From contig OZ037770.1 in assembly GCA_964035545.1 (NCBI GenBank), positions 12,842,642-12,906,641 on the forward strand: DNA of 64,000 nucleotides, given 5' to 3'. Under the pieces are notes generated by a model that saw nothing but the letters and a program-made list of their open reading frames with translations, searched no databases and was not told the DNA's origin. Shown here in pieces: positions 23,883 to 56,082 of this stretch; within the stretch, counting starts at the first letter, position 1; every line of letters starts with the position of its first letter. A program made the translations under genes and the position numbers. The stretch is from Bugula neritina. Lineage: Eukaryota > Bryozoa > Gymnolaemata > Cheilostomatida > Bugulidae.

Positions 23883-26800
23883 TCAAGAGTTATCATCTCT
23901 TCTGTTATAGCCATTAAACCCAGGAAAGAGGTAGAGTCTTCTCATGTGAGTGAGAGTATCCCAGGCTACAACCAGCTGTCCACTGTCCAACTTTTTCTTC
24001 AGACACAGTTTCCTGACTTTAGTCTGCACCTAAACATAATCATAAATAACTGACAGTTTCAATAGTTTAGATTCCCGAGTAGAGAAGTTATGAGGTTTGT
24101 GACATAAAGCCATGTGACCATGACTCAGTTATCAATATATGTAAACGAACCAACCTTCACAACTGGCATATTTTTTCTTTATTGAATAATCTAATTTTAT
24201 CACTATACTGATTAGCCAAATGTGGTGAGCTAAGTGGAAGATTGTGTTCACTAAAGCTTCACATGTTTAAATTGCTTTACATCTTTCCACATAGTACTGC
24301 TTTACAAGAGGTTCATTTTCAAAGTTAAACTTGTAGACTTACTTGTTTGAAAATAGTGTAGAGGTCATGGTGACAGGCATGTTTGTACATTGAAGATACC
24401 AGAGCTCTAATCATTAGAGATCCATACACACGATGTCTCTTCGATGTAAATGCTGTAACAGATCATATAGAAATACACAATTCAGCAAGCGCATATAATG
24501 GAAGTAATAATGCATACAGAAGTGTAATATAGTAACTGACTAACTCAAACTGAACTCACACTCCATACTGGATTTCACTACCAGCAAATCATCATAGTTC
24601 AGTCTAGTCATAGCCTCAGCTTTCTTATCTCCTGGAACTCCAACAGGGTGTCGTGCTTGTGTCCCTACACCCTCTCTCTGCGCCGGTTCAGCCACTCGTG
24701 CTGAGTCTATATCTCCGTCACCAACAGTTTTATCTTCTGGAACTTCAACAGGATGTGGTGACCCTGTCAATGCATCCTTTTCCAGAGCTGGTTCAGCCTC
24801 TGGTACTGAGTTTATACCTCCTTCATCAACATCTTCTTCAGCTGTGAAATAAACTGGCTATACAGAGAGATGCTAATAGGTGATTTATAAAACCACTGAA
24901 TTCTAACTATCTATTTTCTGCTGAGATGTATATCTATATACTCTGCAGATAGTCAACAGGCACTAATAACTTTGAGATAATATAAAGATAAACATTATAA
25001 GCATGTATCAAGGAACTACTAACTGCTCTACTTACAATCTTTAGTAGATTTTTTGGAGTTCTCTTCTTTTTTAGACTCGGAGTTTTTAGCTCTCTGGACT
25101 TTAGCAAGGGAAGGTGACACTACTTCGGCATCCTCTATCTGAGCTTTTCCAATATCAGTTGCTGGGTCTATACCTTTCTCACCAACATCTATCCTGGCTG
25201 TAACAATTATATGAATATTCAAAACTTTCAAATTGCTTATAGAAAAAACAAAATAAGCCCCCCTCCCCCGTTCAGAATAATGATAAAGAGTCATTTCATT
25301 CTATTTACTAAATTGGGACAGCAAAGCAGAAAATTTATCAAAATTACTTGTTATCTATATGCATATAATGTAGTGACTCAAAAATAATTGCTTCATACAA
25401 ATAGTGTTAGCTATATTTTGACTCAGCTGATGGTAGGTAAAGCTTACTTCCACTACAGGTTTCCAGAATAACAATCTTCGGTCTCCCAGCCATCCCGGGG
25501 AAGTTCAGTGGGGTCAACAGGTCATACACATCAGTGAGCTTCACTCTCCTCCCATCTACTCCATAGATGTAGTTGTTTACACCTCCATGAGTCATGATAA
25601 CCAACACATGACATCCCAGATCTTCATGTTCCTTTTGTTGGACTTCATCTTTGATGGTGGACAGAATAGCCTAAATAATTTTGTAGCAAAATACTGTAAA
25701 TAGGCTAGACGATGTCTCTTTTGACCATCATAAACACAAACATTATTATTGTACCAAACATACCGCTGCTTTCAGATCTGTATGTGTCACAACATCAAAC
25801 TTGAAAGCTTTCAACATGACTGAAATATTCTCAACATCAGTATCTGAACCTTGCCTACACAAATCTGGTCCCTCATCAAAGTTCTTGTTGTTGATTATAA
25901 GAGCTCTGCCTCTTTTCCGTGTCATAGTAAACACCTGCAGATGTAAAGAACAAAATGGTTGGTAACTTTCTGAAAGAAATTGTTGTTATTTCTAAATATG
26001 GTAAATATCATTTTCGTCAGGTGACAGTTACCTTATCAGTGTTTGAAAAGAGCTTTTTGATTTTCAAGGTAGTAGTTCTTTCCAGTTTAAGTCTCATCAA
26101 CTTCATTTGTTCCCCTTCTTTATCAGGGTACAAGTACTCGTCTTCATCAGAAAGATCACTCAGATCATCATCAGCTGTGACCTCTTCAGTTCTTTTATCT
26201 GATTGGTTGTTATCTTCAACTACAAATATAAAACGATATAGTAGTATTTAAGTGCAACAGCATAACAGCGTGCCACCCTACAAGTTGAGCACTATACATA
26301 TAATCTTTCATAGGTGTGAATGATTTGCTCGATAAAAATTTGATTTCTGTGATAGACTTGAGTTAGTCGCTATAAAATATCAATTTGAACTAAAAAGCTG
26401 TTAAGCGACAGTATATTCGAAACCACTAGATTGGATTTAGTGCAGTTTTCTACCTGAAAGGTTGCTTTTCTCTTGCTGTCCTCTAGCAAGCAACTCACTC
26501 ACAGTTCTTTGAAAGGTCTCCAAATCATCTCTTGACATGCTCTCACCTAAATATTAGAAAACATGAATTAAAATATCTCGCATGAAAAAGACAATTTTTT
26601 ATATACTAATAAATTGTTAATGACAAAAAGATCTGTAAAGGATCTAATCTTTCAAAGGTTTTTTACTATCCCCATCTCATTAATACCATAAAAAGCATTT
26701 TTATTATTTCAATGAGTATCTTTTGGCATACAAAAATTTCAAGATGCTAAAATTTTTAGGAATTGTGGAAGAAACAGATACTACTGAAACTCAAATAAAA

Positions 26801-29800
26801 GAAGCATACATGGGTGGAAAAAAGCTGAAGGAACTTCCTCATCTTTACAAAGGGTTATTGAGGATCCCTGGTACCAGTTGACTAGGGGGGAAGATTTCAA
26901 GGAGCGGAGGCACCATTGAGGCCTTGTTATTTTCTCAACTTGAGAGTTGCCTAACAGCAAGCAGTGTCCACAGTGAACTGACGGAACCGGTCTGCATGCT
27001 GTCCATGTTTCTAGAACCTGTCTGAGGATGCTGTTGGTAGCATTAATCAGGGTCTGCCACATTCTGCTGATGTTTTCGGCGTCTGATGAAACGAATAGAA
27101 GCACTTTTCTTGATTTGTAATCGTGTATCAGCTGAGTGTAGATTTTATCATGATACACATTGGCTCCATTTCTCTTCACTTTGATTTTAGAGATTTCATC
27201 AGGAAACAGCTGCAGTAAACCAACTGTCATCTGGTGGGATACGTAGTGTGGTAGTGCCAGCCCATTGAATTCAATACCAACTAACAGAAACATGCTTTTA
27301 GGTGGTGAGAAGTTATGGTTGAAGTATTCCTTGGCAAACTGTGGCGCAATGAAGCATGAGTAAATTGGGTCTTTATCAGAAGCATCATGTAGTGGACCAT
27401 GTAGCAGACGGAAAGTCTTAAGCAGGCAAATAGCAACTGCCCAGTCCTGAGGCTCATGGAATCCAGATTCTTTTCTTATTAAATAGTTGAAAAGAATTTC
27501 CCTTAAAACACCTGTTTTAGTGAAATGATCTACAGACTCTTCAAAATCCTGTAGCTCAAATTTATCACCACCAAAATTAAGTAGTGAGAATTGATCACGT
27601 CGACACTGCCACACATTAGAATCATGATTATGCATTACGGTTAGAAGCTTGGTAACTTCTGATATCTTGTGGAAGATGTAAGGCTTCAGAGTATCCATAT
27701 CTTTGTACCACAATATCTTACCGCAGTCATGCATGTAGGTAAGAATTATGTCCAGCTGACTTGATTTAATCTGAAGGTTCTGCTGTTGGAAGGTGGCCAG
27801 GATACACCAGAATGAGCTGTAAGTAGACTTTAGAGAGAGAACTTTCTCATTCACCTCTTCCCAAATTAAAGGCAAAGACTTCACAAACTTTTGACTGCTT
27901 TGTAGAAGCGATTTCTTGATCTTGTCAAACACTTCATATCCATCGTCAGCTCCGACTTCATAAATGTCATCTTCAACAAACACCCTACCTGCTGACTCCA
28001 CAAAATGCTGAATTTGACAAAATTCTCCACCCAATGCTTTCTCCTCCTCAACAATCTCAACACTAATTTGATTCATTAGTTTGAGAAAGGTTGACTTTTG
28101 CTCCTGAAACTTGATGTTAGTGAATTTGTCTTTGTGAGTCAAAATGAGCTTTGGTGCACCCAAAGTTGGGTTAGCCAAATAGAGATGAGACATGTAATCA
28201 AAGGCCAATCTTCTCACAGCTTCTCTACTGGAAAACTCTGTAGAAAGGTTGTTGAATTCCGCCATATTGACTACAAAAACGGGAATACAATTTTGTTTCA
28301 GCGTGAGTTGATATGTCGCATGATACACTTCCTGTCCCCCCATGTCAAGGACACGTAGCACTGTTCCATCTACTTCAACTTCCTGAACATTGAAGACTTT
28401 TGTCGTCTCATCTATGGCAGCTTCAGGGCTTCTGTCTATTAAGACTCTCTTCCTCTCAGGACTTTGCAAGGTCTTGATTAGACTTGTTTTACCGGCCATA
28501 GAATTTCCCAGTACAGCTATTGTAGCAAAGGGGATATTTTTTCCAGAACCTTTAGCTAAATCCTTCAAATATTGTCTCACAGCATCTAATCCTCTCCGAC
28601 AGACTTCCCTTGGAGGAGATGTGAGAGCAAAACAACTATCTGTGTTTAGTCCTTGAAGCTGGGTCAGCTGTAATATCTCCTGGTCTAGAGACTTCAGAAA
28701 TTTATTGTCGGATACATTCAGCTCTTGCAGACTACTCAATGTGTACACAGAAGATGGGATGTTGGTAAAACTATTGCCTGATATGTCCAGTTTCTCCAAT
28801 TTTTTTAGACTTTGTACACTAAAAAGAAATGAGTGAGAGCTGAGCTTTAATTGAATGAGGAAGCATGTAAAGCAGATTGGAGTGATAGAATAAAATGGTA
28901 ATTTATGTGTAAACAAGAGAGCAACCTAGCTGTGAATATCATATCATAACAAGTCACTAAAACTTCTGCCCCTCAGACTTCTAAATTACAAGCCATCGTG
29001 TTAACCATCACAATACAAGGCTACTGGGAAATTTCAACATTATATTCAATATTTCTTATTAATTCACTATCTTTAATATCTTTCAAACTTTAATTCAGGC
29101 CACAGATAAATAAGATTTAATTCAAGATACAGTCGAATAATTGAGCTTTCATATTTATGGTAAGAGTAGGTAGGTAGGTAACACTTTTAAACATTGCAAG
29201 AACAGCCTTGCTATCTAAGGTTAGCTTATTTCAAACGTTTTTATACACGCTGCAAGCATATTTTTAATAAAAATTCAGTGAATTTAACTTTTATTCAACC
29301 TGCCTTTACACCACAATAACTACACTCAAGAAGCAATAGTTCTAAAACCCCAACTGATTGTAGAAAAACTCTGCGACACAACCTTGCAGTGGCTTTAGCT
29401 CAATTTCACTGTGGTTGTAGTAGCTTAAGTAATTATATCTAAATGTAAGCATTTATATAACTACATACCAAGTATTTACTATAACTATTGGTATTTATAT
29501 AACAACCAAATATTTACTAGTTATTACTTATTAGTATTACTCAGAGTAAGTATTATCATCATGTTAATTAGACTACAAGACTTTATCTGGTTTAGTATGA
29601 ATAACTTCTACAGTAAGTTACTACAGCCAATTAGACAATCATCGTAAACTACACAAACCAATACTAAGACTTATATAGTGTTGAGCATAAACAGGTATAC
29701 ATAACAGCAATAGCATAAGATTTAAAGTACTGCCTTTAATGAACCAGGTATAACTTCAATATAATGTGGTTTGCAGGAGGTTAGAAATAGTTTCATGTCA

Positions 29801-32800
29801 TTGGCTAATGACAAAGACTGCCTAATACAAGCAACTTTGTATGGTTTCTTTATCTATTTGAATAGAAAAACTCCCTGCAGTGGATAAGCCATTAATTAGG
29901 AGTGAGTGGCTAGCAAGTTGAACTTGTATATGTAACAACAACTAAAGCCATTAGATTACAAACTTGTAAATACACTGATAAAAATAGTAAAACCAAGATA
30001 AGTTAAATGTGCTGCAGGTACCTTGGATATGAATAGAGGTGACCATATTATAGTCATACTATTTACACGCAGTAGGGTACATAACCAAGTTCCTAACCAA
30101 CTAAAACTATATGGAATTATTAATGCCCTGTTTCTAGTGACTGCATGTGCACTATTAATAGGCTCTCAGGTTCACAGACAGCACAGCTAGGGACATACAT
30201 GTAATAGCCCCGTATATTAAATAAAAAAGCTCACTGTCTTACAAGTAAATAAATTTCATTGACTGACCTATTTATGGTTAATGTCATTATTCTTATGTAA
30301 GTAATTATTTAAGCAGTTAACTGCATGGGGCTGGCATATTAGAGTTTGGTGGTATTTTATAGGCTTTTACAAAGCTTCAAAACTTTCATTCTATGGTAAA
30401 TAAAATTTTTTATCAGAAACATCAACCTAGTAAAAATTGTAAATAATTACAATTTTGATTTCTTCGGCCATTTTATAGTCTCACGTACGAGTATTATATT
30501 ATGCATATTATATACACTGTACATGCTGTACATTATGTATATTACTGCCATCACTTCTATCAACTCTATAATCTTACCCACATTTCAAAATAGTTCTACT
30601 ATAATTATAGTTTAATGTATACATGCAGTATGTAGTGAACTATAGGCTATGATTTGGGCAATAAATCTTCACTGATGTCCTTTATTGTATTATTACTCAA
30701 ACATTACACTGGTTGGCATCATTAGACAGTAATTGACATTGATTGACATCGTCAAGACTACAATTGCAATGCAAAACTTACATAATCTCAGCATAAACTT
30801 ATATAAACAACATGAAAAATACAAACAGTTGCATTCCACAAAAAGAAAAAATATAATTAATATAAATGATTTATTTATTTTTGCTCTCTACAAATATCAA
30901 CTAGTTCGCTAGCTCCTGCTATTATCAAGTGTCAGATATTTGTTATGTAGCGCAGACTAGGGTGTAGAAAGCTTTTCTATAAAAGTGCTTAATATAGCTA
31001 AGGTAGTTGAGCAAACTAGCACTAATTTCGCTACACAGTACATACCTCTTTGGTAGAGTACTGAGTTTACAGCGACTGATATTCAACTCTCTCAGTGATT
31101 GTAAAGATGTGAACATCTCATCTGGTAGATTATCAGACAGGTTATTCCTTGACAGTTTCAGTATTTGAAGATTTCTCAGTTGAAGCATACTGTGACATAA
31201 ATGTAACACATCTTGTATTGATACAGTCATTATTAACCTGTTATACAACTAGGATTATAAAAATACTAAAAACTTGTAGTTAAAGTTTGCCCTCTGTGTC
31301 TTGCTATATCGAAGTGAGTTAATGTTAGATGGTGAAATGTTATATCATTTATCATACCATTTATCATATATTATATAATGACTCAACCATAAAGCTTTTT
31401 TCAAATATGCTATAGAAAAGTATTACACATTAGTAATAATTTTGAAAATATAATAATAATAATTTCTGTTGAACTGTAATCTTGTACACAATTTAAAAAC
31501 AAGTCTCATCAGGACATCATGAAACTAAACCCATATTTCATTCACCAATTATACACCTGAAAATAGATTTATTTGAAATCTGCTTAAAGACAATTAATTT
31601 TAATTTCAACAAAAATCATAAACCTCTATAGCTATTAGGTAGTCCCAGCAGTAATTGCTTTCTAACAGATATACAAATAAAACTTCTTTTCTAAATGTTA
31701 AGAAATACAGATCATATGAAAATATACCACAGTTATAAATACAGAGGTGATGTTTCTATTTCTATTACAGTATTATTATACAAGAATTGTTATCGCATTC
31801 ACATTCTGCTATAATTTTTACATTATGCATACAAGAGTTATTATATTAAACTGTATACACAGTACATACCTCTTTGGTAGAGTACTGAGTTTACAGCGAC
31901 TGATATTCAACTCTCTCAGTGATTGTAAAGATGTGAACATCTCATCTGGTAGATTATCAGACAGGTTATTCCTTGACAGTTTCAGTATTTGAAGATTTCT
32001 CAGTTGAAGCATACTGTGACATAAATGTAACACATCTTGTATTGATACAGTCATTATTAACCTGTTATACAACTAGGATTATAAAAATACTAAAAACTTG
32101 TAGTTAAAGTTTGCCCTCTGTGTCTTGCTATATCGAAGTGAGTTAATGTTAGATGGTGAAATGTTATATCATTTATCATACCATTTATCATATATTATAT
32201 AATGACTCAACCATAAAGCTTTTTTCAAATATGCTATAGAAAAGTATTACACATTAGTAATAATTTTGAAAATATAATAATAATAATTTCTGTTGAACTG
32301 TAATCTTGTACACAATTTAAAAACAAGTCTCATCAGGACATCATGAAACTAAACCCATATTTCATTCACCAATTATACACCTGAAAATAGATTTATTTGA
32401 AATCTGCTTAAAGACAATTAATTTTAATTTCAACAAAAATCATAAACCTCTATAGCTATTAGGTAGTCCCAGCAGTAATTGCTTTCTAACAGATATACAA
32501 ATAAAACTTCTTTTCTAAATGTTAAGAAATACAGATCATATGAAAATATACCACAGTTATAAATACAGAGGTGATGTTTCTATTTCTATTACAGTATTAT
32601 TATACAAGAATTGTTATCGCATTCACATTCTGCTATAATTTTTACATTATGCATACAAGAGTTATTATATTAAACTGTATACACAGTACATACCTCTTTG
32701 GTAGAGTACTGAGTTCACACCAATTGATATCCAACTCTCTCAGTGATTGTAAAGATGTGAACATCTCATCTGGTAGATTATCAGACAGGTTATTCCCTGA

Positions 32801-35800
32801 CAGTTTCAGTATTTGAAGATTTCTCAGTTGAGGTATGCTGTAACATAAATGGAACACATGTTGTATTGATACAGTCATTATTGACCTGTTATACAACTAG
32901 GATTATAAAAATACTAAAAACTTGTAGTTAAAGTTTGCCCTCTGTGTCTTGCTATATCGAAGTGAGTTAATGTTAGATGGTGAAATGTTATATCATTTAT
33001 CATACCATTTATCATATATTATATAATGACTCAACCATAAAGCTTTTTTCAAATATGCTATAGAAAAGTATTACACATTAGTAATAATTTTGAAAATATA
33101 ATAATAATAATTTCTGTTGAACTGTAATCTTGTACACAATTTAAAAACAAGTCTCATCAGGACATCATGAAACTAAACCCATATTTCATTCACCAATTAT
33201 ACACCTGAAAATAGATTTATTTGAAATCTGCTTAAAGACAATTAATTTTAATTTCAACAAAAATCATAAACCTCTATAGCTATTAGGTAGTCCCAGCAGT
33301 AATTGCTTTCTAACAGATATACAAATAAAACTTCTTTTCTAAATGTTAAGAAATACAGATCATATGAAAATATACCACAGTTATAAATACAGAGGTGATG
33401 TTTCTATTTCTATTACAGTATTATTATACAAGAATTGTTATCGCATTCACATTCTGCTATAATTTTTACATTATGCATACAAGAGTTATTATATTAAACT
33501 GCATACACAGTACATACCTCTTTGGTAGAGTACTGAGTTCACACCAATTGATATCCAACTCTCTCAGTGATTGTAAAGATGTGAACATCTCATCTGGTAG
33601 ATTATCAGACAGGTTATTCCCTGACAGTTTCAGTATTTGAAGATTTCTCAGTTGAGGTATGCTGTAACATAAATGGAACACATGTTGTATTGATACAGTC
33701 ATTATTGACCTGTTATACAACTAGGATTATGAAAATACTAAAAACTTGTAGTTAAAGTTTGCTCTCTGTGTCTTGCTATATCGAAGTGAGGAAATGTTAG
33801 ATGGTGAACTGTTATGTCATTCATCATACCATTTATGATAAATCATCATTTATCATATATTATATAATGACTCAACCATAAAGTTATTTTCAAATCTGAT
33901 ATAGAAAAAATATTACACAAATTATACTTATAAAAATATGATAATTATATTTTCTGTTGCACTGTAATGTTGTACATACTTTAAAAATAAATCCCATCAG
34001 GACATCATAGAACTAAATCCGTATATTTTATCCACCAGTTAAACATATATTTAAAAATTGATTTACTCAAAACCAGCCTAAATATAAACAGCTGTGCATG
34101 TCCTGCATGGTCTTAATTTTAACAAAACTTATAAACCTCTATAGCTATTAGGTAGTCCAAGTCGTAATTGCTTTCTAATGGATATACAAATAAAACTTCT
34201 TTTGTAAATGTTTAGAAATATAGATAATATGAAAATATAATACAGTTATAAATACAGAGGTGGTGTTTTTATTTCTATTACAGTATCATTATACAAGAAT
34301 TGTTATCACATTCACATTCTACTATATAATTATAACATTATATATACAAGAGTTATTATAATAAACTGTACACACAGTACATACCTCTTTGGTAGAGTAC
34401 TGAGTCCACAGTTACTGATATCCAACTCTCTCAGTGATTGTAAAGATGTGAACATATCAGGAAATAATGAAACTAAATTCCATATTTTTTCACCAATTAT
34501 ATTTAAATATATATTCATATAAAATCTGCCTAAATATAAATAGTTGTGCATGTGATACTTGATTTTAATTTTAACAAAAATCATAAACTTCTATACAATT
34601 AGGTAGTCACAGCAGTAATTACTTTTTAATAGATGTACAAATAAAACTCCTTTTCCAAATGTTTAGAAGTATAGATCACATGAAAATAGAATAGAGTTAT
34701 AAATACAAAGGTGGTGTTTCTATTTCTATTACAGTATCATTATACAACAAATATTATCATGTTCACATTCTGATATAATTATTACATTATGTATACAAGA
34801 GTTATTATATTGAAGTGTATACACACAGTACATACCTCTTTGGTAGAGTACTGAGTCCACAGTGACTGATATCCAACTCTCTCAGTGATTGTAAAGATGT
34901 GAACAAATCATCTGGTAGATTACCAGACAGGTTATTCCCTGACAATTTCAGTATTTGAAGACTTCTCAGTTGAAGCATACTGTAATATAAATATAACACA
35001 TATTGTATTAATATAATCATTATTGTTATTAATTGTTATACAATTAGGAATATGAAAATACTACAAAAAACCTTTAGGTAAAATTCGCCCTCCGTGCCTT
35101 GTTACATTGAAGTGCATTAATTTAAGGCAGTGAAATGTTATGACATATATAACATATATTATAATATAATGAATCTACCATAAAGTCATTTTCAAATCAA
35201 CTAGAAAAATTATTACACAGATAATTATTATGAAAATGTAAAAATAGTTTTTGTTATGTTGTAATCTTGTACACAGTTTAAAAACAAGTCACATCAGGAA
35301 ATAATAAAACTAAATTCCATATTTTTTTCACCAATTATATTTAAATATATATTCATATAAAATCTGCCTAAATATAAATTATAGTTGTGCATGTGATACT
35401 TGATTTTAATTTTAACAAAAATCATAAACTTCTATACAATTAGGTAGTCACAGCAGTAATTACTTTCTAATAGATGTACAAATAAAACTACTTTTCCAAA
35501 TGTTTAGAAATATAGATAATATGAAAATATACCACAGTTATAAATACAGAGATGGTGTTTCTATTTCTATGACAGTATCATTATACAATAATTATTATCA
35601 CACTCACATTCTGCTATAATTATTACATTATGTATACAAGAGTTATTATATTAAACTGTATATACCCAGTACATACCTTTTTGGTAGAGTAGTGAGTTTA
35701 CAGTGAGTGATATTCAACTTTCTCAGTGATTGTAAAGATGTGAACATATCATCTGGTAGACTGTCATCAGACAGTCTATTCCCTGACATATACAGTATTT

Positions 35801-36372
35801 GAAGATTTCTCAGTTGAGATATTCTGTAATATAACTATAATATAACACATGTTGTTTTGATAAAGTTTACTATACATAGAATACACTAATCTGTACTATA
35901 GAATACTACTATGTTATTATTTTCTCTCTCAGTAAATTATTTATATTTTATTACAATGTGTTCCATATTACCTAGCATAGTCAGCAGAGGAATTCATCCA
36001 CCTCAAACTCAGATAAGTGAGATGAGGGAACAGATTGTGAATATCTGGAGGAATGTCACCCCACAGTATAACATGAGTCACAGTATGATGTCTATTTTCT
36101 TCTCTCAACTCATTTATAGTGTAGCATTTAGCTGCGATATTCTTCATCCATCCTTTATCAGACTCATCTATACTGGCAGTGTTGAACCGTATGTCATATC
36201 TTTTCTCTGTAAATCAGATACACAAAGAATAGAAACATTATTTATATATTTATCCACAAACTGGATATAGTCTTTGATGTGCATCTGATAAATCAAAATA
36301 TATTCTCATGACAAAAACTGACTATTAAATTATATATACAATGTTTACTAAAACTGACTTACTTTCAGCCAT
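23883..36372 (-). CDS. LRR-Roc-COR-caspase fusion protein, copy A
   Basis: Exons, 5' to 3': 36372-36363, 36206-35972, LRR exons 35823-35677, 34979-34836, 33661-33518, 32837-32694, 32013-31870 and 31189-31046, the large exon 28818-26810, then 26546-26454, 26219-26032, 25934-25764, 25670-25448, 25197-25036, 24841-24560, 24452-24343 and 24029-23883. All junctions are GT-AG and in phase; 1498 residues plus TGA. The start has a good context (A at -3, G at +4). Residues 82-400 are LRRs of about 24 residues. A Roc GTPase follows, with P-loop GNSMAGKTS (about 475), DMGGQ (529) and THKD (598), then COR (IWEEVNEKVLS onward). After an acidic linker comes caspase p20 with catalytic His in MTHGG (1219) and Cys in LETCSG (1263). 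A linker with repeats follows, then p10 (YGSLMIRAL, ending LYLFPGF). No CARD, DED or death domain was seen. By family knowledge it would be a GTP-regulated sensor joined to a cysteine protease. Number of LRR exons used in transcripts is uncertain. Confidence 0.85.
28950..29045 (-). mobile_element. SINE family A, old copy
   Basis: Complement traces of the head are visible: ATTACAAGCCATCGTGTTAA, CCATCACAATACAAGG and CTACTGGGAAATTTCAACA. It is strongly diverged and lies in the intron before the large exon of caspase copy A. Confidence 0.55.
31034..33720 (-). repeat. 824-bp LRR exon-intron cassette, tandem near-identical copies
   Basis: The minus-strand LRR exons starting at 31189, 32013, 32837 and 33661 are exactly 824 bp apart, and the intron sequence between them is almost the same in each unit. 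Each exon is 144 bp, encodes 48 residues (two LRRs) and is bounded by phase-2 introns on both sides, so units can be gained or lost without changing the frame. The exons at 31046-31189 and 31870-32013 encode the same peptide. Those at 32694-32837 and 33518-33661 encode a second shared version (IPQLRN start, DINWCE). The left edge of the repeat is near 31034, where similarity stops. Confidence 0.93.
33721..35850 (-). repeat. Older, diverged copies of the LRR cassette
   Basis: The same exon-intron pattern continues here with clear sequence drift and indels. It holds intact LRR exons at 34836-34979 and 35677-35823, and a broken one at 34385-34459. Recognisable intron blocks recur, for example the stretch near 34135-34330 against 34580-34800 and 35420-35660. 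These appear to be earlier products of the same duplication process. Confidence 0.85.
34385..34459 (-). pseudogene. Truncated LRR exon lacking its 5' half and acceptor
   Basis: The 3' half of an LRR exon is intact, from MFTSLQSLRELDIS to its GT donor at 34384. Upstream of about 34459 the sequence switches directly into cassette intron sequence, matching the block starting near 35294. The 5' half of the exon and its splice acceptor have been deleted, probably at a short match around ACATCA/ATATCA. It should be skipped in splicing. I left it out of the copy A model. Confidence 0.85.
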
Positions 36373-38328
36373 TATGTGAAATCAGCCAATCATGTAGGAC
36401 TATTCAACTTTCAGTTTGTGGCAGCCAATCAGAATTTCTATTAGTACCATGTTTTCCTATCTGTAACAGACAGTAACTCTACATCTTGTAAAATCACATT
36501 CTGAAACGAAACTTTCTACAAGAAAATCTCTCTGAATGAGTTTCTCATTGAATAAACAGAAGATAATATTTAGAGATCAAAGCTGAGCAAGAATCAACCT
36601 TTGCTACATTATTGTAGACTTCAGATGGTAATAAGATGAGTTGTAATAGTCAATATGAATATGTGATCAATTGACTACTGATAAGACTAACTCTACACAA
36701 GTGTATTCTCAATTATTTGCTGTGAGTATGCTGTCAAGCTGATAATATGCTGTCTGCTACAAAATAAGAAGAATAATGTGAAGTTATAGCTGAACCGTAT
36801 GAGTTTAAATGCAACTATGTTGACTTTGTGTAGAAGTAGAGCTATGCAGTTGTCGACTAGAAATTTCTATGTGCAGATACTGTATGCAAATAAAGGACCC
36901 ACTCTTCAGTGTTACAGTAAAGTATGCCATATAGTATGCAATATACTATACAACATACATGTTGCTACGAAATTAAAAACTTGCTTGAGTTTGTATAACT
37001 TATTCTGAGTTTGTGACTAAACAGCACCAGCTTTTGGGTAGACAATTCTTGTACTATAAAACTCAGATTTAAATACAGCAGTTATTTTTAACATATATTA
37101 TAATATAGTATATATGTAACATAATCTATAGTAATACAGGTAATAAAATAAGTGAAACTGGTGAACACTATTTTCTACAAACCTGAAATATCTCAAAGTC
37201 ACTGAGTAATGTATTCTATGTCTCAGCTGCTAACCACCCCATAGCTATCATTTGATCAGTAAACAGTCACATGATAATATTACAAGCTATGACCACCTGC
37301 CAACCGAAAACATAGCGTTACAGTGAGTACATAATTAAATGTTTTGCCACTGATAAGGGTCAGTTTATTATTCTAAGAGCATTCGATAATATGTGGAGTA
37401 GCTCAATGCTTATCTATAACACATAATAGGACTATAATTGGCTTAGTTTAATAACTATAGCTTGTGACAATAATTATTCTATAAGGTTAAACTGTGTACA
37501 ATTTAGTATGGCTGTAAGAATTCTTATAAATAAACTCAGTAACACCAAGAGCTGAGAGGATATAATTACTCTCTAACTCTCTCAAAAAATAATTAGTAAA
37601 CTACTACTGAAAGTGACACTACCAGTCTTACCTACCTACCTACCTACCTACCTACCTACCTACCTACCTACCTACCTACCTACCTACCTACCTACCACTG
37701 CTATTGTTGCAGCTACCACCACAACCACCACTGCTGTTGCTATTGCTGCTGCTACTACTGCTACAACTACCACTGCTATTGCTACCACCGCTACTGCTGC
37801 TGCTACTGCTACCACGACTGCTACCACTACTGCTACTGCAAGTACTGCTACTGCAAGTACTGCTAATATAAGTACTGCTACTACAAATACTGCTACTGCT
37901 ACTGCAAGTACTGCTGCTGCAAGTTGCTACAGTTGCTGCTGCCGCTGCTGCCTGCTACCACTACCTGCTACTACTATAAGTTACCGGCTACTACTATGGA
38001 TTACTACCACTGGCACCACCACCACTATTATTACTACCACTGCCACCACTAAGTATAATAATAGTCCATGGGTTATCACCATTTCAATATCATTATGAGA
38101 GTGAGTGGGTAAAAATTAACTGAGAGGTGTATTATTACACCTACTTATACTTAGTTTTATAGTTCTATTCATAAAATTACATTTAGATTTACATAATCAT
38201 AATGATAATATAAAATAATAGTATAAGTATCACTAAGATAAACTAAAACACAATACACCGAATGTCACCAATTAAAATTAGTAATCTGCAACGACTACTA
38301 CTACTAGTACTACTACTACTAGTACTAC
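36373..38328. other. Region between caspase copy A and the retrotransposon
   Basis: It contains the presumed promoter and 5' UTR of copy A, which is not resolvable by eye. There follows AT-rich sequence without coding signals, and from 37629 a large microsatellite. The 69-residue plus-strand frame at 36799 has no recognisable features. Confidence 0.6.
37629..38060. repeat. TACC tetranucleotide array followed by CTA/CTG-rich trinucleotide array
   Basis: A pure TACC run spans about 37629-37696. It changes into imperfect GCTACT/ACCACC/GCTGCT repeats to about 38060. The long Thr/Ala-rich frame across it is a by-product of the repeat. Confidence 0.93.
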
Positions 38329-38635: not shown

Positions 38636-38636
38636 G

Positions 38637-38654
38637 TGGTGGCAGCGGTGGGAT
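38637..38654 (+). other. Primer binding site complementary to tRNA-Leu
   Basis: TGGTGGCAGCGGTGGGAT begins one base after the 5' LTR. It is the complement of the conserved 3' end of animal tRNA-Leu including CCA, as I recall that end. This identifies the likely minus-strand primer of the element. Confidence 0.8.
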
Positions 38655-38668
38655 AGTGCACATCCAAG

Positions 38669-39622
38669 ATGGAGACTGAAAACGCTGGAATGCAACCACC
38701 GGCAGTAGAAGGTGAGCGTAGAGACAATGCTGTAGAGACAATGCCTGTCAACCATGTAATAGAAGAGCGAAGGGTTCCGCGAGAACTAACTGAAGACCGC
38801 TACCGGTTAAAGGCGTCCACCTTCACGGGCGAAAAAGAGGTGGAGCAATTCATCCAAGAGTTTGGCGACGTAATGGACGTCGCCCAGTGGCCCCCTAGGG
38901 TGGCCCTGCTGAAGCTTAGAATGGCATTGATAGACAAAGCCAAGCCTTATGGGCTGGGCGTAGACATCGATAATATCTTTGCTTCTCTGCGGGCCCGCTT
39001 CGGCCTCTCTGCTACAGATGCCCGGGCCCGACTGCAAAGGTTGCGGCGTGATCCCCGCACCCCGCTGCGGGAACATGCCGCCGCGGTTATGAAGCTGGCA
39101 CAGATCGCATACAGCGACTTGCTCCCAGTCAACCGCTAGAGGTATACCCTTGACGCCTTCATAGCATCTGTCGACGATCTGGGTCTCCACCACCAGTTTC
39201 TAGCTAGGGGAGTCACCACCGTCGAAGATGCTCTGACAGAGGGGGAAGCTTACCTCCTAGCCAATCAGATGCATAAAAGTCGCAGAAACTCCCGCCAAGT
39301 GGAGGTAGACCGCGCGGACACGGCAGCGGGACGAGAGGAGGAAACCTCCGCAACGGCTGCCGTGGCTCAGTTAGCGACGGCATCGAAAGTCACTCAACTG
39401 ACAGACATGCTGGCCAAACTGATAGCAACACTGACACCCCAAACCCCAGTAGGTACCGCCACTGAGCCCGTGCAGCTACCGGCGCCGCCACCGGGGGAAA
39501 CGGTCAGTTTTTGCTGGGAATGCGGAAATCAAGGACATTTTCGCAGGTACTGTCTCTACCTAACTCCGGGGTTAAACTACCGCGGCCCGCAGATGTTCCC
39601 ACCTCTTGCGGGCCGGCGATGA
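38669..39622 (+). pseudogene. Gypsy gag, interrupted by an in-frame TAG
   Basis: The frame opens with METENAGMQPP and continues through a capsid-like region (FTGEKEVEQFIQEF) to a CCHC zinc knuckle, CWECGNQGHFRRYC (C-X2-C-X4-H-X4-C), typical of a nucleocapsid. A TAG at 39137-39139 splits the frame after LLPVNR, and the same frame then continues to a TGA at 39620-39622. The stop lies well before the knuckle, so a full Gag would not be made without readthrough. Confidence 0.88.
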
Positions 39623-40090
39623 AACCTCCAGGGAAGAAGAAACGCAGGTCACCCAGACAGGTGCCGCGTGCTGGCAACCAACAGTAGCAACAGCCGCGAC
39701 GGACCAACAAGGGGCTCCGCCCCGCCGCTGCCTTTTTCGTGCCCCTCCACAATCGATTCGACGGGCTACCAGCCCAAGAATCCGGATGGGAGCCAGCAAA
39801 GGTAGCCGGAAATCTAGCCTCGGCACCTTCGAGGTCCACTTACGGCCATCCCAAGAGACCTCCTTCGCGACCCAAAGCGAGGGAGGTACTCCCTGCGAGA
39901 GTAAGGCCTGAAGAGAGAGTTCAGGTGCAGCCCCATGGGAACAGCTATTTCTTGCCCGGTAAATTGGAAGGCAAAGCTGTTACTTTTCTCATTGATTCAG
40001 GCTGTACCACGAACCTCCTAAGCCGCCAACTCTTCGACACCCTCAGTGCTAGGGTCAGGGACGAGATGGAACCATACGGGGGGGGGGGAG
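39623..40090 (+). pseudogene. Gypsy protease region
   Basis: The aspartic protease signature FLIDSGCTTNLLS lies near 39988-40030. The frame is -1 relative to gag, as often seen at gag-pol borders. It runs into a run of eleven Gs at 40078-40088, after which the frame holding the rest of the protease and the reverse transcriptase is different. The frame change at the G run breaks continuity with downstream pol. Confidence 0.8.
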
Positions 40091-42181
40091 TATGGCACCC
40101 TAGCTGACGGGTCATGCCTTCCCTTCTATGGTATAATTGAGCTGACGGGACGAGTCCGTGATCAAACGATCCAAGAGACGTCTATCGTCAGTCAGCTCAA
40201 GGAGGACGCCATCCTCGGGATGCCATTCCTAAAATGGCACGGATGTCACATCGATTTTAGTAAATCTGCGATGGTGATGTCCGGGCGGGAACTCGCCTGC
40301 GTCGACAAGTTTGGCCGCCCTTTGGTGGGAGGGGTGCGGGTGGTACGCAACCGTACCATACCAGGCCGCTCCCGGGCTACCATTCACTGCAGGGTGAACA
40401 ATAGCCGGATCTCTGGACTCGGGGTAGTCGAAGGCGCGCACGAAAGGATCCAACTTGCCAGCAGTCTAAATCAGCTGACTGAGCAAGGGGAGATCTTGGT
40501 GCAGTGCGTCAACCCCTTTACCGAGTCTGTCAAGCTTCCGGCTGGGTCTATGCTGGGCCGTTTTCACTCTGTTCAGGAGGAGGACGTGGGCCCGTTGCTG
40601 GGTGATGCGACGGAGGCATCCTCTCGGTGCCCTACTCAAGGGCGAAGGACAGTCCCAGCACATCTCCGGGAGTTATATGAAACAGCCTGTGGCGGCTGCG
40701 CGAGTAACAAAGAACGCCAAGCTATGGCGAAGTTGCTACGCGACTACGGTGATGTGTTCAGCAGCGAAGATCATGACGTGGGGCTGACTGGAGTTGTCAG
40801 ACACGAAATACCGCTGACTGCAAGGACAGTCCCTATTCGGCAACTCACACGCCGGCTGGGGCCGGAGAAAGAGAAGGAGGTTAGCCAACAAGTACGGGAT
40901 CTTCTGGATCGCGGCCTCATAGAGCCCGCCCATAGTGCGTGGAGCTCGCCGGTCGTACTGGTCCGGAAGAAAGATGGCAGTTGGCGGTTCTGTGTGGATT
41001 ACCGCAAACTCAATAGCGTAACCATACAGGACGCCTACTCTCTACCTCGTATTGACGAGTCATTGGATGCCCTAGCCGGCAGCAAGTACTTCAGTACGTT
41101 AGACTTGCTGAGTGGCTACTGGCAAGTCCCTCTGAGTCCCGACGCCCAGGAGAAAGCGGCGTTTATCACACGGGACGATTTGTGGAAGTGGAAGGTGTTG
41201 CCTTTCGGGTTAACCTCCGCTCCAGCCACCTTCCAGAGGTTGATGGAGCAAGTCCTCAGCGGGCTCCATTGGAAGACACTGCTGATCTACCTCGATGATG
41301 TCATCGTGATCTCCCCAGACTTCGAGACGCATGTCAGTCGTCTGCAGGAGGTCTTCGAGAGGCTCCAAGGTGCCGGTCTTAAGCTCAAACCTTTCAAGTG
41401 CGCTCTATTGCAGCCGGAGGTCAAGTACCTGGGGCACGTTGTCGGTCGAAACGGCGTGGCAACGGATCTCGAAAAGGTACGGGCGATAGAAGACTGGGTC
41501 ACCCCCTAAGACTTGACCGGACTTCGGGCTTTCTTGGGGCTGGTAAGGTATTACAGGCAATACATACCAGAATTTGCGAGCATAGCGCAGCCATTAAACC
41601 GGCTCATCGCAAAGGGGGTGACGTGGCAGTGGACCCCAGTCGAACAAGGAGCGTTCGACCGCCTCAAGGGTTGCCTACTAACGGCGCCCATCTTGGTCTA
41701 CCCAGACCCCACTCTGGAGTACATCCTCGACACTGACGCCAGTGACCAAAATGTTGGCGCTGTGCTGTCTCAAGTGCAGAAAGGCCGAGAGGTAATAGTA
41801 GCCTACTACAGCAAGTCTCTCTCACCCACTGAACGAAATTACTGCATTACCCGCAAGGAGCTGCTGGCAGTAATCAAGTCAGTGAAGCACTTCAGATCAT
41901 ACTTATACGGCAGGAAGTTCCGGCTGCGTACGGATCATGCCTCGCTGATCTGGTTGTGCAAGAGAGCAGAGCCCTCTAGTCAGGTCGCCCAGTGGCTCGA
42001 AATCCTAGCTGAATTCTCGTACCGGATCGAACATCGGCCGGGCAAGAGACACAGCAATGCGGATGGTTTGAGCCGCCGACCTGATGGAGGTTGCAAACAG
42101 TGTCTCAACATCGAGAGGAGGGACGGAGGTTTCCCTGCGATGCGAGTTGGAGACATTAGCTCACCACGGAGCACCGTTTGA
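40090..42181 (+). pseudogene. Gypsy reverse transcriptase and RNase H region
   Basis: Reverse transcriptase motifs are clear: WSSPVVLVRKKDGSWRFCVD, YFSTLDLLSGYWQ, FGLTSAPATFQ and the catalytic YLDD (near 41288-41300), then the thumb (KYLGHVV). A TAA at 41507-41509 interrupts the connection, and the same frame resumes with FLGLVRYYRQYIPEF. RNase H follows with DTDASDQNVGAVLSQ, the ELLAVIKSVKHFR segment and LRTDHASL. Near 42080-42180 the frame shifts, so the spacer before integrase is read in another frame (42084-42461). Confidence 0.9.
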
Positions 42182-42477
42182 CTGGGACCAGGGTCAACTC
42201 AGGCAGGAGGTTGACGAGTCCCCGGAGGTTGTACAGAACCTCCGCGCCAATCCTGTACTGGCCGATAATGTCCAGGAGCTGAAGAAGCTCCAAGAGGAGT
42301 TGCCTGGGGTAGTGGCAGACATATATCGGGCCAAAAAGGACGGGCGACGACCCAGGGAGGAACGCATACGGCAGGGATGCGCCGAGTTCCGGCTACTCTG
42401 CCAGCGTTGGGACTCGCTGAGGATCGGGCAGGATGGTCTGCCCCAGTGCCATACGCTGTGAGTTAATCTAGGACACT

Positions 42478-44092
42478 CACAAACAGGCCCACGCAGGGGT
42501 CAAGAGAGTGATCTCCAAATTACAACTCCGGTGGTATTGGCCCAAAATGGGGCGGGATGTCCGGCTCAGAGTAAAGCAGTGCGAAATCTGCCAGGCCAGC
42601 AAGCATGGCCGTCTCCCTGGTGAAGCGGGACGGCGGAGGCTATATGCTGGCAGGCCGTGGCAAGTGGTAGCTGTTGACCTGGTCGGACCCATGCCCCTGA
42701 CCCCCAGAGACAATAGTTGGATCTTAGTACTGACCGACCACTTTACTAGGTGGGCAGATGCTCTGGCTATCCCAGATGCGTCAGCCCCAACAGTGGCCAG
42801 GACGCTAGACCAACATGTATTGTTATTTCGGGCTCCCCAAACAGATACACTCTGATCAAGGCGCTCAGTTCCAGTCTCAACTGATAAGCGACCTTTGCCG
42901 CCTCTGGGGAGTAAATCAGAGCAGGACCACCCCCTACCACCCTCAAGGTAATGGGGTGGTGGAGCGCAACAACCGGATGCTAGGTGATGCGCTCCGGAGT
43001 CTCCTCCTTGGACGCAGCCAAGAGGAATGGGACAAGGTGTTGCCGCAAGTCATGCGTGCATACCGTAGCACCCCACACACCAGTACTGGTGAGACCCCAA
43101 ACCTCTTGATGCTTGGGAGAGAGACCCGCGTCCCTGACCATCTCACCTACCACGTTCCAGAGCTAGACAACTCGATTCACGAGTATGCCAGTGAACTAGT
43201 GGAACGAATGAAGGCCGCACACGATATACTGCATGAACAGCAGTGGAAGGTGTGACACGAAGATTCCGAGGAACCACCCCTCTATCAAACGGGAGATAAG
43301 GTGTGGATGGTCAATTACCGTAGGCGTCGCGGACAGGCGGCTAAGTTACAGCCTAAGTTCGTGGGACCCTACGTGATCGTCGAGGCTATGCCCAACCATA
43401 CGTACAAGATTGAGCGTTCAGGACAGGTGTCTATCCAGAATGAGTCTCGCTTAAAGCCGTATTGGGCTAGCCCCGACGCGGTGGGAGAAGCTCCCCCCCC
43501 GTTGTTGGAGCCCAGGAGGCAGACAACAACGCGTGGGCGACGGCGGCAGGGACCTGAATATGAAGTGGTCATACCGGGGGAGGAAGAATTGGTGAGAGAT
43601 GAGCGACTGCTTTTACCATCAGAAGCGTGTCCGCCACCGCCAAATCTGATTCCACCACTTCCAGAAACCGAGCCGGTTCCGGAAGTGCAAACCCCCATGG
43701 AGGGAGGGGCTCCATCCGGAGAACCAGAAGACATGACCACTAACGGTGAAGTAGAGACGCCACCAGAGGCCCCTACTAATACACCGACGAGTGCGTCACC
43801 TCCCCTAGAGCGGGGACAACATACGAGGCAACCCCCCGCATATTTGAAGGACTTCGTATGCGACTGCGTTAAAAGCGGCGCGTATGAAAGTCTAGGGAAA
43901 AACCGTACGAGAAAAGTATCGAGCAAATGTGGGAGTTGTCAACACCACGAAAATGTCAACTTTTGTATCGGCAGAAATAGAAACAAAATTCATCCGCCGG
44001 GTGCACAAAGTCTTAATCACGCACCCCAACCACGTTGCTCGATCTTTTCATACGCTGATGCAGTCAAGAGTAGACGTGTTCCTAATCAGTAG
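42478..44092 (+). pseudogene. Gypsy integrase and C-terminal region
   Basis: The zinc-binding module has HKQAH and CEIC, though its upstream part is damaged around 42461-42478. The catalytic core shows the D,D,E residues in VDLVGP, HSDQGAQF and GNGVVERNNR. A frameshift at about 42815-42840 lies between the first and second aspartates. A TGA at 43253-43255 then interrupts the frame, which continues with GDKVWM and a GPY/F-type KFVGPY motif and a proline-rich tail to 44092. No chromodomain was recognised. Confidence 0.85.
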
Positions 44093-44372
44093 TCCAAACC
44101 ATTTCACAAATTCAGTATGTCTTACGACAACAGATCGTGGGGTGAGTTAACTATATCTTGATATGGAAACTAGATTGCATCACTCAGCTCCGACTCACTG
44201 AGTCAAATGAGCTGGAGATAGGCTAGTGAACTACCGTGGTAAGAACTCAGTTTGACTTAGAGATTTTATAATCTCATTGCAATACGTGTTCTATCTGACT
44301 ATTCACTACCATAAATCTCTACGAGGTAACTGAACGAGAAGTTGCCAGGCTATTCAAGCCGACAACACTGCA

Positions 44373-45189
44373 GTGTATTATACTAACGCTGTTGAAACTC
44401 TTTCAGGTTACACTCGACCCGTTACAACCAGGGTACGGGATAGAGCACTTCCCGCTCCGCATCCTGAGGAGTATACCAATGGTGACCGGCCCGAGCTACT
44501 GCGCCGCCGTTGGCGGTGGGTGTCGCCGGAGACAGAGGAGCAGATAGAAACAGCCTGGGGATCCAAAAGAAAGGACGCGGTGCCAGATTTGTGACGAGGA
44601 GTGCGCCTCTCACCGCTCCTTGAAGCTGCATGTCAACGCCCATCTATTGCTCACGTTCTGCCCCTGTGGATATAACGACGTCTACCCCTACCCCGTTACC
44701 AGACATCAGGCGACGGGCTGTTTCTCCGAAGAGAATTATGTGGTGGATGCCAAACTCTATCCAGAATTCTTAACTCTGATACGACCTCTAGTGAAGAAGG
44801 CAATGTTGTTGGCCGTCCTGACCTCGGGCTTCCAACGCGTACTAGACTACGCCAGGCAGCAATCTCCATTGGTGTCCGACCGCCCTCAGATTGCGTATAC
44901 CCCCGAAGAGTTTTCCTATCCTGAAGAAGGAGAAGTCTTCCCTACCCCGACGAAGAGACGGACCCGGTCTCCAAGTCCCCCTCTTCGTCGCAGACGGACA
45001 CCGTCCCCAGACTCTGCTCGCCTGGCCACAGTAGAGGAACGCCTCCTCCGACTGCAGGCTGAGTTTACCCAGTTAGCACCAGATCTGCTTAATACCACGA
45101 CGGGACTCTTTCAGCTAAAAGGCTCGGTGGGCCGGATTAAAAAGAAATTACGTACATGCCAGGCCAAACATGGGCGTGCCCAACACTGA
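44373..45189 (+). pseudogene. Extra gypsy ORF after pol with zinc fingers and a basic/coiled region
   Basis: Two overlapping frames appear to be one gene broken by a frameshift near 44575-44594. The first (44373-44594) is basic and ends in ETEEQIETAW. The second, open from about 44581 to 45189, starts with a classical C2H2 finger (CQIC, 12 residues, HVNAH) and has a second Cys/His cluster, CPCGY to HQATGC. It continues with an Arg/Ser/Pro-rich stretch (TKRRTRSPSPPLRRRR) and a likely coiled coil (VEERLLRLQAEFTQL). There is no membrane segment, so it does not look like an envelope protein. A pyrimidine-rich 3' splice site at about 44399-44406 lies just upstream, which could allow expression from a spliced transcript. 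Function is unknown. Confidence 0.65.
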
Positions 45190-45465
45190 CTCTGGTTCTG
45201 TTGCCCGGAATGATCCACAAGCCTCGTCCTCTTGGGAGACCCAAGACTATCGTGCAAATGCTTGACTGCTCGACAGCCGATTCCTTGTCCAATACCACAA
45301 CTAGCCGGTATTCTATAGCTGGCCAATTGTATGTGACCTGCTGTTATAATGACTCTGTCTGTTATTATGTATCTTTATATGTGTTATGTATTTTCTTTTG
45401 GTCTACTGATGTATGTGGTTAATGATGAACGTTTTTTTTATATATCAGAAAGAGGGCTTTCTGCT

Positions 45466-45476
45466 GGTGGGGGCGG
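45466..45476 (+). other. Polypurine-like tract before the 3' LTR
   Basis: A GGTGGGGGCGG run immediately precedes the 3' LTR, in the position expected for plus-strand priming. It carries one T and one C, so it is not a perfect purine run. Confidence 0.6.
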
Positions 45477-45782
45477 TGTGGTGGCTCGTGGAGCTACCAG
45501 CAGCACAGTACGCAGGGTCGCGTAATTGACCCGGAACAATGACAGCCAATTAGCGGCTTTAATAGTTAGCAGCAGTAGTAGTTTTCCCGCTGTTAGTCAG
45601 TCGAAGTTAGAGTGTTGAATAGTCTAGATGTGTGTAATTATTAATGTATTTGTATCGTTTTTGTAATGTACTCTTGTGTTTAAAATATATACTCGATCAC
45701 TTAACTTATCCTGGTGTAGTTCTCTAGCAAGTAATTAGACTCTCTGGATCGCATATCAACCCTAATTCTGAAAATTATAACA
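45477..45782 (+). repeat. 3' LTR of the gypsy element
   Basis: This is the direct repeat of 38329-38635. It follows the G-rich tract at 45466-45476 and is followed by CTACTACTA microsatellite sequence that continues the pre-insertion repeat. Confidence 0.93.
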
Positions 45783-47125
45783 CTACTACTACTAGTACTA
45801 GTAACTAGTGAATAATAATAATCATCATCATCAGTAAATGACCAAATCAAAATGAGTAATGAGATGTCACTTAAACCCTAGGAATAGGTTTACCATCTAC
45901 TTCCAGTAAAAACAATTTCAGAAGTTTAAGTTGAAGCTTCTGTTAAAATAAATGTTAAAATAAGCTTTTGAAATGAGGATTGACTTTCACTTTGAGAAAG
46001 AGCATAAATAAGGCATAATTTGAATGGCTTATGCTGAACAAGAACTTACCAAAAAATTTGATACAAAGATCTCTACAATGCAAACACTTGCTATGCAAAG
46101 TTGATTCGAAAAAGTGGGTCGCCAATTTAAAATTAATGATTACAAATCAACACAGCCGACATCGAAGCTGAACCAAAAACTGCAGCTGATGTGGGGTGAC
46201 GCCTCCTTACAGTACAAAGTACAGTGCACTGACTTGCCATCTGAAATAACGTACTTTGTTCGATGTTATAAGAGGCGCAAAATATCTTTTCCGTCGATCT
46301 TTTTTCTGAATAAAAGACATGAGGTGATAACTTCTCATTAACATTTCACAAAATCTGCTATTTATAGTATGTAATTGAGGAAAATCGCAGAACTAAAATT
46401 TTCATATCTAGTCCCATGAAGTAAGAGAATAGTGCAAATGGCTGAATCCAAGCCAAAATGTAGGCTGGTCAATGGAATCTCAATTTCGCAATCTACATTT
46501 TAATTGCAAGTAAATAGTGGTTGTGGAGCAAGAATAATACTGTGGGAAAATTATAATTCGAAAATACAAAAAAGCCGAGAAACTAAAGTTTATTGGAGTT
46601 GAAATTTGAGAGAGAAAACATGGTCAAGCCAATTATTATGAAAATTACATGAAAACGTAAGCAGAGATAGTTTGAGTATTGTGTAAATGCAGTTTTTCAA
46701 TCAATTTAAAAAAAATATTGTTTTTTATTCTGAAAAATAGCATAAACTTGACAGCCTCAAAAACAGCATAACAGTGTGATATAAAGAAAAGTATTCATAA
46801 ACTAGCAGCATTATAATACAGCCTTGATATAATTATAAAAAGTTGTGGTTAAATGCATCTATATATAAGAGTAATGTGAAAATAAAGAGCTGTATAATCC
46901 TTGCACATTACTTTGTATTGAAAATCATAATCTTGAAATAGTTTGTGCTAGTAGCACGCAGAGCAAACAGTGTCATTTACATTATACATAATATAAATGG
47001 CAGCATTATAAACACAGCTGATAGTTATTTTCTCTTGCAGAAACCTACACGCTGTCTACTAGCAAACCTATAGAAAAAAGACATTTTACAGAAATATTGC
47101 TAGTGAGTTAGACTGTAACTAAGAG
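45783..47125. other. Region between the retrotransposon and caspase copy B
   Basis: CTA-rich microsatellite remnants reach to about 45835, then AT-rich sequence with no gene found. A complementary AATAAA near 46722-46727 could be the poly(A) signal of copy B. The short plus-strand frame at 46114 has no supporting features. Confidence 0.55.

Positions 47126-56082
<8,957 letters not shown>

Follow-up and report, generated by a model that had tools for sequence, protein, structure and literature searches.

Two genes of the bryozoan Bugula neritina, A and B, are probably members of a large family of intracellular single-chain receptors, in which a variable LRR sensor, a Roc-COR switch and an animal-type caspase effector follow one another in the same protein. 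Dozens of Bugula genes appear to join a sensor, a switch and a cell-death enzyme that are usually separate in other animals, possibly as an immune receptor system of their own. Both genes lie on the minus strand of the window, a stretch of 64,000 nucleotides from chromosome 6 (contig OZ037770.1). A sequence-only reading had proposed two tandem multi-exon genes here, each encoding a GTPase fused to a caspase, and its interpretation as a whole is partly supported. It overlooked the genome-wide family, the swapping of effectors and the diversifying LRR face. The finding exceeds that statement: this bryozoan has a whole family of receptor-proteases that has diversified and swaps effectors, and for which we infer the mechanism and the ligand.

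Gene models and domain order

The limits that the sequence-only reading gave for the two genes are exact to the base in the rebuilt models (Table 1). Its assembly of the exons into single proteins also holds, with GT-AG at all internal junctions, consistent phases and no internal stop in either gene. The predicted order in both is LRRs, Roc, COR, acidic linker, caspase p20 and p10. The LRR exons are 138-147 bp long with phase 2-2, the linker between p20 and p10 occupies one exon in gene A and two in gene B, and p10 is made of two exons.

Table 1. Predicted genes A and B and other features of the window.
Feature	Position	Strand	Basis or remark
Gene A: LRR-Roc-COR-caspase, 14 exons, 1317 aa	56082-47126	-	In-phase GT-AG model; Pfam of joined protein
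Gene A LRR exons 3-6	54871-54728, 54544-54404, 54230-54087, 53789-53652	-	Each phase 2-2; gene model and LRR matches
Gene A exon 7, 2009 bp	53532-51524	-	Last LRRs, Roc (GNTMAGKTS, DLGGQ, THKD), COR
Gene A linker exons	51340-51251; 50763-50588	-	Second is acidic, motif LSDEDDYLFP
Gene A caspase p20 exons	50147-49977; 49305-49083	-	First S1 Arg in CREG (first exon); MTHGG, ETCSG (second exon)
Gene A p20/p10 linker exon	48844-48653	-	
Gene A p10 exons	48393-48284; 47257-47126	-	Aligned to CED-3 p10
Long CT/GA microsatellite	47640-47860		Last intron of gene A
Ty3-like retroelement	38657-44092	+	Between genes A and B; gag and pol frames, reverse transcriptase match
Gene B: LRR-Roc-COR-caspase, 17 exons, 1498 aa	36372-23883	-	In-phase GT-AG model; Pfam of joined protein
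Gene B six tandem LRR exons	35823-35677, 34979-34836, 33661-33518, 32837-32694, 32013-31870, 31189-31046	-	
Relic gene B LRR exon	34382-34450	-	By eye; seemingly lacks its 5' half; partial repeat copy
Gene B exon 9, 2009 bp	28818-26810	-	Last LRRs, Roc (GNSMAGKTS, DMGGQ, THKD), COR
Gene B linker exons	26546-26454; 26219-26032	-	Second is acidic
Gene B caspase p20 exons	25934-25764; 25670-25448	-	MTHGG, ETCSG (second exon)
Gene B p20/p10 linker exons	25197-25036; 24841-24560	-	
Gene B p10 exons	24452-24343; 24029-23883	-	
Several similar exons	4499-21232	-	By eye a tandem discoidin (F5/8 C-type) cluster; Pfam on eight single exons unsupportive

Pfam searches of the joined proteins matched many LRRs in both, together with Roc, COR-A and Peptidase_C14. 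The caspase match is strong in gene A (residues 1050-1283, E 9.9e-37) and gene B (residues 1142-1456, E 6e-36). Roc is matched at E 5.4e-8 (33.5 bits) in gene B and at E 1.9e-5 (25.3 bits), just below the 27-bit cut-off, in gene A, and the COR-A matches (E 6.4e-5 in A, 0.0034 in B) both fall below the cut-off of 35.3 bits. The same searches of the two joined proteins gave no match to a protein kinase domain, to NACHT or NB-ARC, or to a death-fold domain. An AlphaFold2 run on the Roc-COR exon of gene A, with gene B as the only other sequence in the alignment, gave a mean pLDDT of 38.2 and no usable model.

Genes A and B are 51% identical in Roc-COR and 83.8% identical in p20. The low Roc-COR identity rules out a duplication introduced by the assembly, and open frames in both genes, together with a family dN/dS of about 0.2, rule out pseudogenes. 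Bacterial contamination is ruled out by the spliced structure of the genes on a chromosome-scale scaffold and by the animal type of the caspase.

A genome-wide family and the linkage of Roc-COR to caspase

The description of the locus as two tandem copies was correct in that two copies are present, but it understated a family that extends throughout the genome. We searched the tzBugNeri2.1 assembly as 295 contigs totalling 215.85 Mb; the excerpted text of its publication gives 320 scaffolds and 216.00 Mb (PMC11480708). With the Roc-COR exon of gene A as query, at least 66 Roc-COR exons were scored among 167 candidates, 64 of them free of internal stops and two with an in-frame stop, and a search with gene B's second p20 exon gave 134 caspase places. 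A caspase exon lies on the same strand within 5 kb downstream of 61 of the 66 Roc-COR exons, and the corresponding control counts are 0/66 upstream on the same strand, 0/66 downstream on the opposite strand and 0/66 upstream on the opposite strand. The median gap over all 66 is 1.6 kb. For the remaining five, the nearest caspase exon is 6.1 to 15.4 kb away. The sequence behind the farthest of these, read for 4.9 kb and thus short of the caspase, contains both linker exons and, beyond them, the gag frame of a retroelement; its long gap may therefore stem from an insertion. By eye, the gag frame behind the family member L080 resembles that of the Ty3-like retroelement in the window.

A separate Pfam Roc search, from which 39 places with open frames of at least 460 codons were chosen, found a downstream caspase exon on the same strand at all 39, within 5.5 kb at 36 of them. 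Four of these places (C6:3940673, C6:6175422, C7:5083608 and C7:7663512) are absent from the 66 when the two lists are compared by reading, and there are therefore at least 65 close pairs of Roc-COR and caspase. Among the 134 caspase places, 69 are unpaired with any of the 66 Roc-COR exons within 15 kb; these may include ordinary caspases, or caspases with Roc-COR partners that were not scored.

We aligned 21 Roc-COR exons, from genes A and B and 19 of 20 fetched loci. The Roc domain had been recognised in the window by its P-loop, DxGGQ and THKD motifs, all of which are present, and Pfam Roc matches all 21 exons at E up to 0.01, with G1 (GxxxxGKTS), DxGG and TH-D invariant in the alignment. 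The COR assignment likewise finds support in the family, where 15 of the 21 exons give a COR-A match with an E of 0.01 or lower (best 9.3e-8), with A and B themselves under Pfam's own cut-off. In-frame stops occur in single members, namely in the p10 exon of L018, in the Roc-COR exon of L026 (C7:7663512) and at two of the 66 scored places, and some copies are therefore decaying or wrongly assembled.

Several candidates were set aside during these searches. High-scoring Pfam Roc matches on small contigs, with internal TAA or TAG codons, resemble small GTPases of a contaminant and were left out of the counts. Eight such small-GTPase matches lie on small unplaced contigs (L001-L008), seven with only TAA or TAG inside, and their longest stop-free frames of 91-215 codons lengthen to 232-412 codons, in a comparison made with no control, if TAA and TAG are read as Gln; the contigs may therefore belong to a ciliate-like associate. 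One nominally very long Roc-COR frame was dropped as a product of N bases. In keeping with a bryozoan source, a Hox exon at L050 carries the motif KLTGP after the homeodomain, a lophotrochozoan Lox5 mark.

The conserved exon structure bears on whether each locus is one gene or two. Of 22 family members compared (A, B and 20 fetched loci), 20 have a phase 1 GT donor at the corresponding position where COR ends; it is absent from L021 and L026, the two most divergent. Both p20 exons, mostly 171 and 223 bp long, have splice sites in the expected phase at all 19 loci that cover them, the sites being sought leniently over 45 bases on either side. The acidic linker exon is matched at E < 0.05 in 16 of the 20 fetched paralog loci. 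Across pairs drawn from 19 members with dS between 0.05 and 1.5, the 96 Roc-COR pairs have a median dN/dS of 0.22 and the 89 p20 pairs one of 0.19, with values up to 0.8 in a few close p20 pairs; by these ratios, the Roc-COR switch and the p20 exons are under purifying selection.

An LRR-Roc-COR gene with no effector could instead stand in tandem with a separate caspase gene, with the in-phase joining of the two being incidental. Polyadenylation-like hexamers do lie between the COR and caspase exons, but their number does not exceed what composition would give (three in A against 3.0 expected, one in B against 2.8), and the conserved Met inside the first caspase exon sits at a position where known caspases carry one by ancestry. 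Against separate genes stand the phase 1 donor at the end of COR, the conserved linker exons, and the 61/66 linkage at a median of 1.6 kb with no pair in opposite orientation within 5 kb. We consider the two-gene arrangement very unlikely. The one-chain architecture of sensor, switch and protease proposed in the sequence-only reading is well supported by the phases, the donor, the linker exons, the linkage and the purifying selection on p20.

Caspase competence, effector exchange and LRR variation

The caspase of gene A is best matched by animal caspases, including an ancestral caspase-3/6/7 reconstruction, insect-type caspases and CED-3, with which it aligns across both p20 and p10. The best 60 of 180 PDB matches are all named caspases (one of them engineered), CED-3 or apopain. 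Catalytic and S1-pocket positions were taken from the alignment to CED-3, with the residue roles established for caspases. The claim that the caspase is complete stands for p20, p10 and the catalytic His and Cys, which are present in both A and B. It does not stand for the pentapeptide, which is ETCSG in both genes rather than the QACxG expected for a caspase, nor, in gene A, for the second S1 Arg, which is Ile there.

We sampled 41 p20 exons, comprising those of A, B, 19 fetched Roc-COR loci and 20 other places chosen for diversity. The His and Cys dyad is intact in 37 of the 41 and in 18 of the 21 that are Roc-linked; Cys is lost in L011, L027 and L044, and His in L014. Two residues before the Cys, E is the commonest residue of the 21 Roc-linked exons (14, with 4 H and 3 Q) and Q that of the 20 other places (14, with 3 E, 2 H and 1 V). 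The contrast in Q between Roc-linked and unpaired exons is in fact slightly sharper, because L042 and L045, both with H, pair with Roc-COR. The first S1 Arg is kept in 20 of 21 Roc-linked exons and the second in 14 of the 17 covered (18 matched), with Ile in gene A and L010 and Ser in L023. Gene B has both S1 arginines, and its caspase looks catalytically competent. The activity of gene A or its preference for Asp is doubtful, because of the change from Q to E that both copies share and the Ile in place of the second S1 Arg. Some family members are probably decoys, and a decoy or regulatory function is likely for those without the catalytic Cys or His.

These substitutions raise the question of whether the fused caspase is in many members, gene A included, a non-catalytic scaffold or decoy that signals through recruited partners. 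The equivalent of Q283 has changed from Q to E in 14 of 21 Roc-linked exons, with Q kept in 14 of 20 others, and the Ile of gene A and the dyad losses at L011, L014, L027 and L044 point the same way. However, the dyad is retained in 18 of 21 Roc-linked exons, the S1 arginines in 20/21 and, where covered, 14/17, and p20 shows purifying selection, and such a role in many members seems unlikely.

The switch and the effector have separate histories in some members. The Roc-COR exons of L013 and L018 are 88.6% identical in residues and their p20 43.7%, and like discordance is found in L012-L013, L018-L023 and pairs with L027. In genes A and B, Roc-COR is saturated at synonymous sites (pS 0.81) and p20 has a dS of 0.34; because synonymous divergence agrees with the protein comparison, unequal protein rates are not the cause of the discordance. 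With groups that were picked after the trees had been viewed, and with the long-branch rows L021 and L027 excluded, a p20 tree forced to unite L012, L013 and L018 is worse by 177 log-likelihood units (AU p 9.6e-5), and a Roc-COR tree forced to unite L012, L016 and L018 is worse by 50 (AU p 6.5e-4). The 90.5% nucleotide identity between L013 and L018 spans the Roc-COR exon and ends about 11 bases into the next intron, and identity between L013 and L027 is likewise confined to that exon. L012-L018 and L013-L023 share intron sequence too, as do ordinary duplicates. Effectors thus appear to have been swapped, because Roc-COR exons about 89% identical join caspases only 44% identical.

The same discordance could result, with no selected swapping, if paralogs converted one another's Roc-COR exons by ordinary gene conversion. 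The family copies are clustered, and the restriction of identity to the Roc-COR exon in L013-L018 and L013-L027 is what a conversion tract would give. We regard conversion as a possibility of some weight, if not the favoured one. Whichever process acted, switch exons about 89% identical sit on 44% identical caspases, and the effector therefore differs.

At the other end of the protein, the sensor diversifies. In 24 close pairs, the LRR part of the exon has a dN/dS of 0.63, the segment that follows it as far as the Roc end 0.21, and COR 0.23. On the LRRs, 13 positions are predicted to lie on the concave face; they were set by the canonical motif after the variability string had been seen. There pN/pS is 1.15 over four disjoint pairs, 1.19 over six and 1.09 over all 24, the disjoint pairs coming from one family and so not being fully independent. 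At these positions pN is 0.41-0.45 and their own pS, 0.38, is also high, with a pS of 0.16 to 0.20 in the other LRR codons and Roc. Off the concave face, pN/pS is about 0.41 in the LRRs, and in disjoint pairs it is 0.19-0.21 for Roc and 0.26 for COR. By these measures, the LRR face is diversifying at positions predicted to face the ligand. In gene B, the last four LRR exons lie in 824-bp repeats that are 94-100% identical over 300-base stretches, and the array therefore grew recently.

Relation to known systems and a possible role

The sequence-only reading knew of no characterised animal protein of this order, and open-licence papers yielded no report of an animal Roco fused to a caspase; bacterial ones have been described. 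The excerpted text of PMC8195603 describes bacterial LRR-AP-GTPase(Roc)-COR proteins with at least 24 C-terminal effector domains, including caspase and trypsin, as predicted conflict systems. They share with the Bugula proteins the order of LRR, Roc, COR and C-terminal effector, a constant core with a varying effector, and a predicted role in conflict or defence (PMC8195603, in the same excerpts). In contrast to these prokaryotic, predicted systems, the Bugula genes are multi-exonic with shuffled exons, and they encode an animal-type caspase with p20 and p10. When prokaryote genomes were scanned with the Roc-COR alignment, 16 pattern matches came up, none confirmed as a relative.

Among eukaryotes, brown algae have expanded LRR-ROCO candidate immune receptors, up to 47 genes per species, whose LRR exons shuffle and diversify much as in Bugula (PMC11378527, as excerpted). 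A peptidase domain at the C terminus, IPR009003, is present in 3 of the 111 LRR-ROCO genes (group 3) and in some SAR relatives, and the same excerpts report no caspase, in contrast to the at least 66 Roc-COR exons of Bugula, 61 with a close caspase (PMC11378527). A Roco joined to a protease is therefore not new in eukaryotes, given these three algal genes. We take IPR009003 to be of serine-protease type. The excerpted account in PMC11378527 credits animals with up to forty different domain combinations in their Rocos, and caspase might be among them. In the familiar LRRK1/2, DAPK1 and MFHAS1, encoded by few genes per genome, the further domains are a kinase, ankyrin and death domain, or an effector is lacking (in part PMC4104024). 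They have the Roc-COR core in common with Bugula, and LRRK and MFHAS1 also the LRRs; unlike LRRK and DAPK, the joined A and B proteins have no Pfam kinase match. Trichoplax, with at least 17 ROC-COR proteins joined to CARD, Death, TIR and other domains, resembles Bugula in having expanded animal Rocos tied to death and immune signalling domains, but those listed in the excerpted text are of adaptor type, with no caspase protease among them (PMC4104024). Two bryozoan genome papers, PMC7576161 and PMC13326412, have no occurrence of caspase, Roco or LRR in searches for these terms.

The Bugula proteins combine what other animals usually distribute over several chains. In the inflammasome or apoptosome, an NLR, an adaptor and a caspase provide sensor, nucleotide switch and caspase output as separate proteins. 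The Bugula proteins share an LRR or other sensor, a nucleotide switch and caspase output with these systems, and differ in being one chain, in having a GTPase for the STAND ATPase and in the lack of a death-fold match. Six-frame searches of the whole genome matched CARD 4 times, Death 11, NACHT 1, NB-ARC 0 and TIR 9; these counts are lower bounds, because domains split by introns can be missed. The contrast between at least 66 Roc-COR exons and one NACHT and no NB-ARC match is large. It is plausible that the single chain works with no adaptor, which the scarcity of CARD, Death, NACHT and NB-ARC fits. The pN/pS of the LRR face, the swapping of effectors and the scarcity of NACHT and NB-ARC suggest an immune or recognition receptor, and Bugula neritina may use Roco-caspases where other animals use NLRs.

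The mechanism we propose begins with the LRR face, which, judging from selection, would bind a microbial, viral or non-self ligand. Characterised Roco proteins change nucleotide state and assembly in Roc-COR, and ligand binding could do the same here. Initiator caspases are activated by proximity; by analogy, the gathered caspase domains would be activated and would cut at the linkers rich in Asp that precede p20 and separate it from p10. The freed protease could then set off cell death or an inflammatory-type response.

Colony allorecognition, or programmed degeneration and renewal of zooids, could be the function of the family rather than antimicrobial defence. Bugula is colonial, and a diversifying LRR face and clustered copies would suit allorecognition too, but the intracellular domain make-up favours sensing within cells, and we think such a function improbable. 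A broader and more tentative proposal, to which we give somewhat less than even credence, is that a bryozoan lineage replaced the usual animal series of STAND-ATPase sensor, death-fold adaptor and caspase by a combinatorial set of Roco-caspases, at least 65 in number, that need no adaptor. Shuffling of exons would join their diversifying LRR sensors and closely similar switches to caspases of several types, which differ in the S1 pocket, in convergence with bacterial modular conflict systems. If so, an animal lineage may run cell-death immunity through single GTPase-protease chains in place of NLRs, and effectors would be exchanged in animals as has been proposed for bacterial defence genes. 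Such a chain would be a natural, self-contained and testable device leading from sensor to caspase, and would show how Roc-COR drives an attached effector, a question that also concerns LRRK2. Elsewhere in the genome, a CARD match with one stop inside is followed after 4.6 kb by a divergent p20 exon of the same strand (G000:C6:14148625-14153595, plus strand), and is probably part of an ordinary CARD-caspase.
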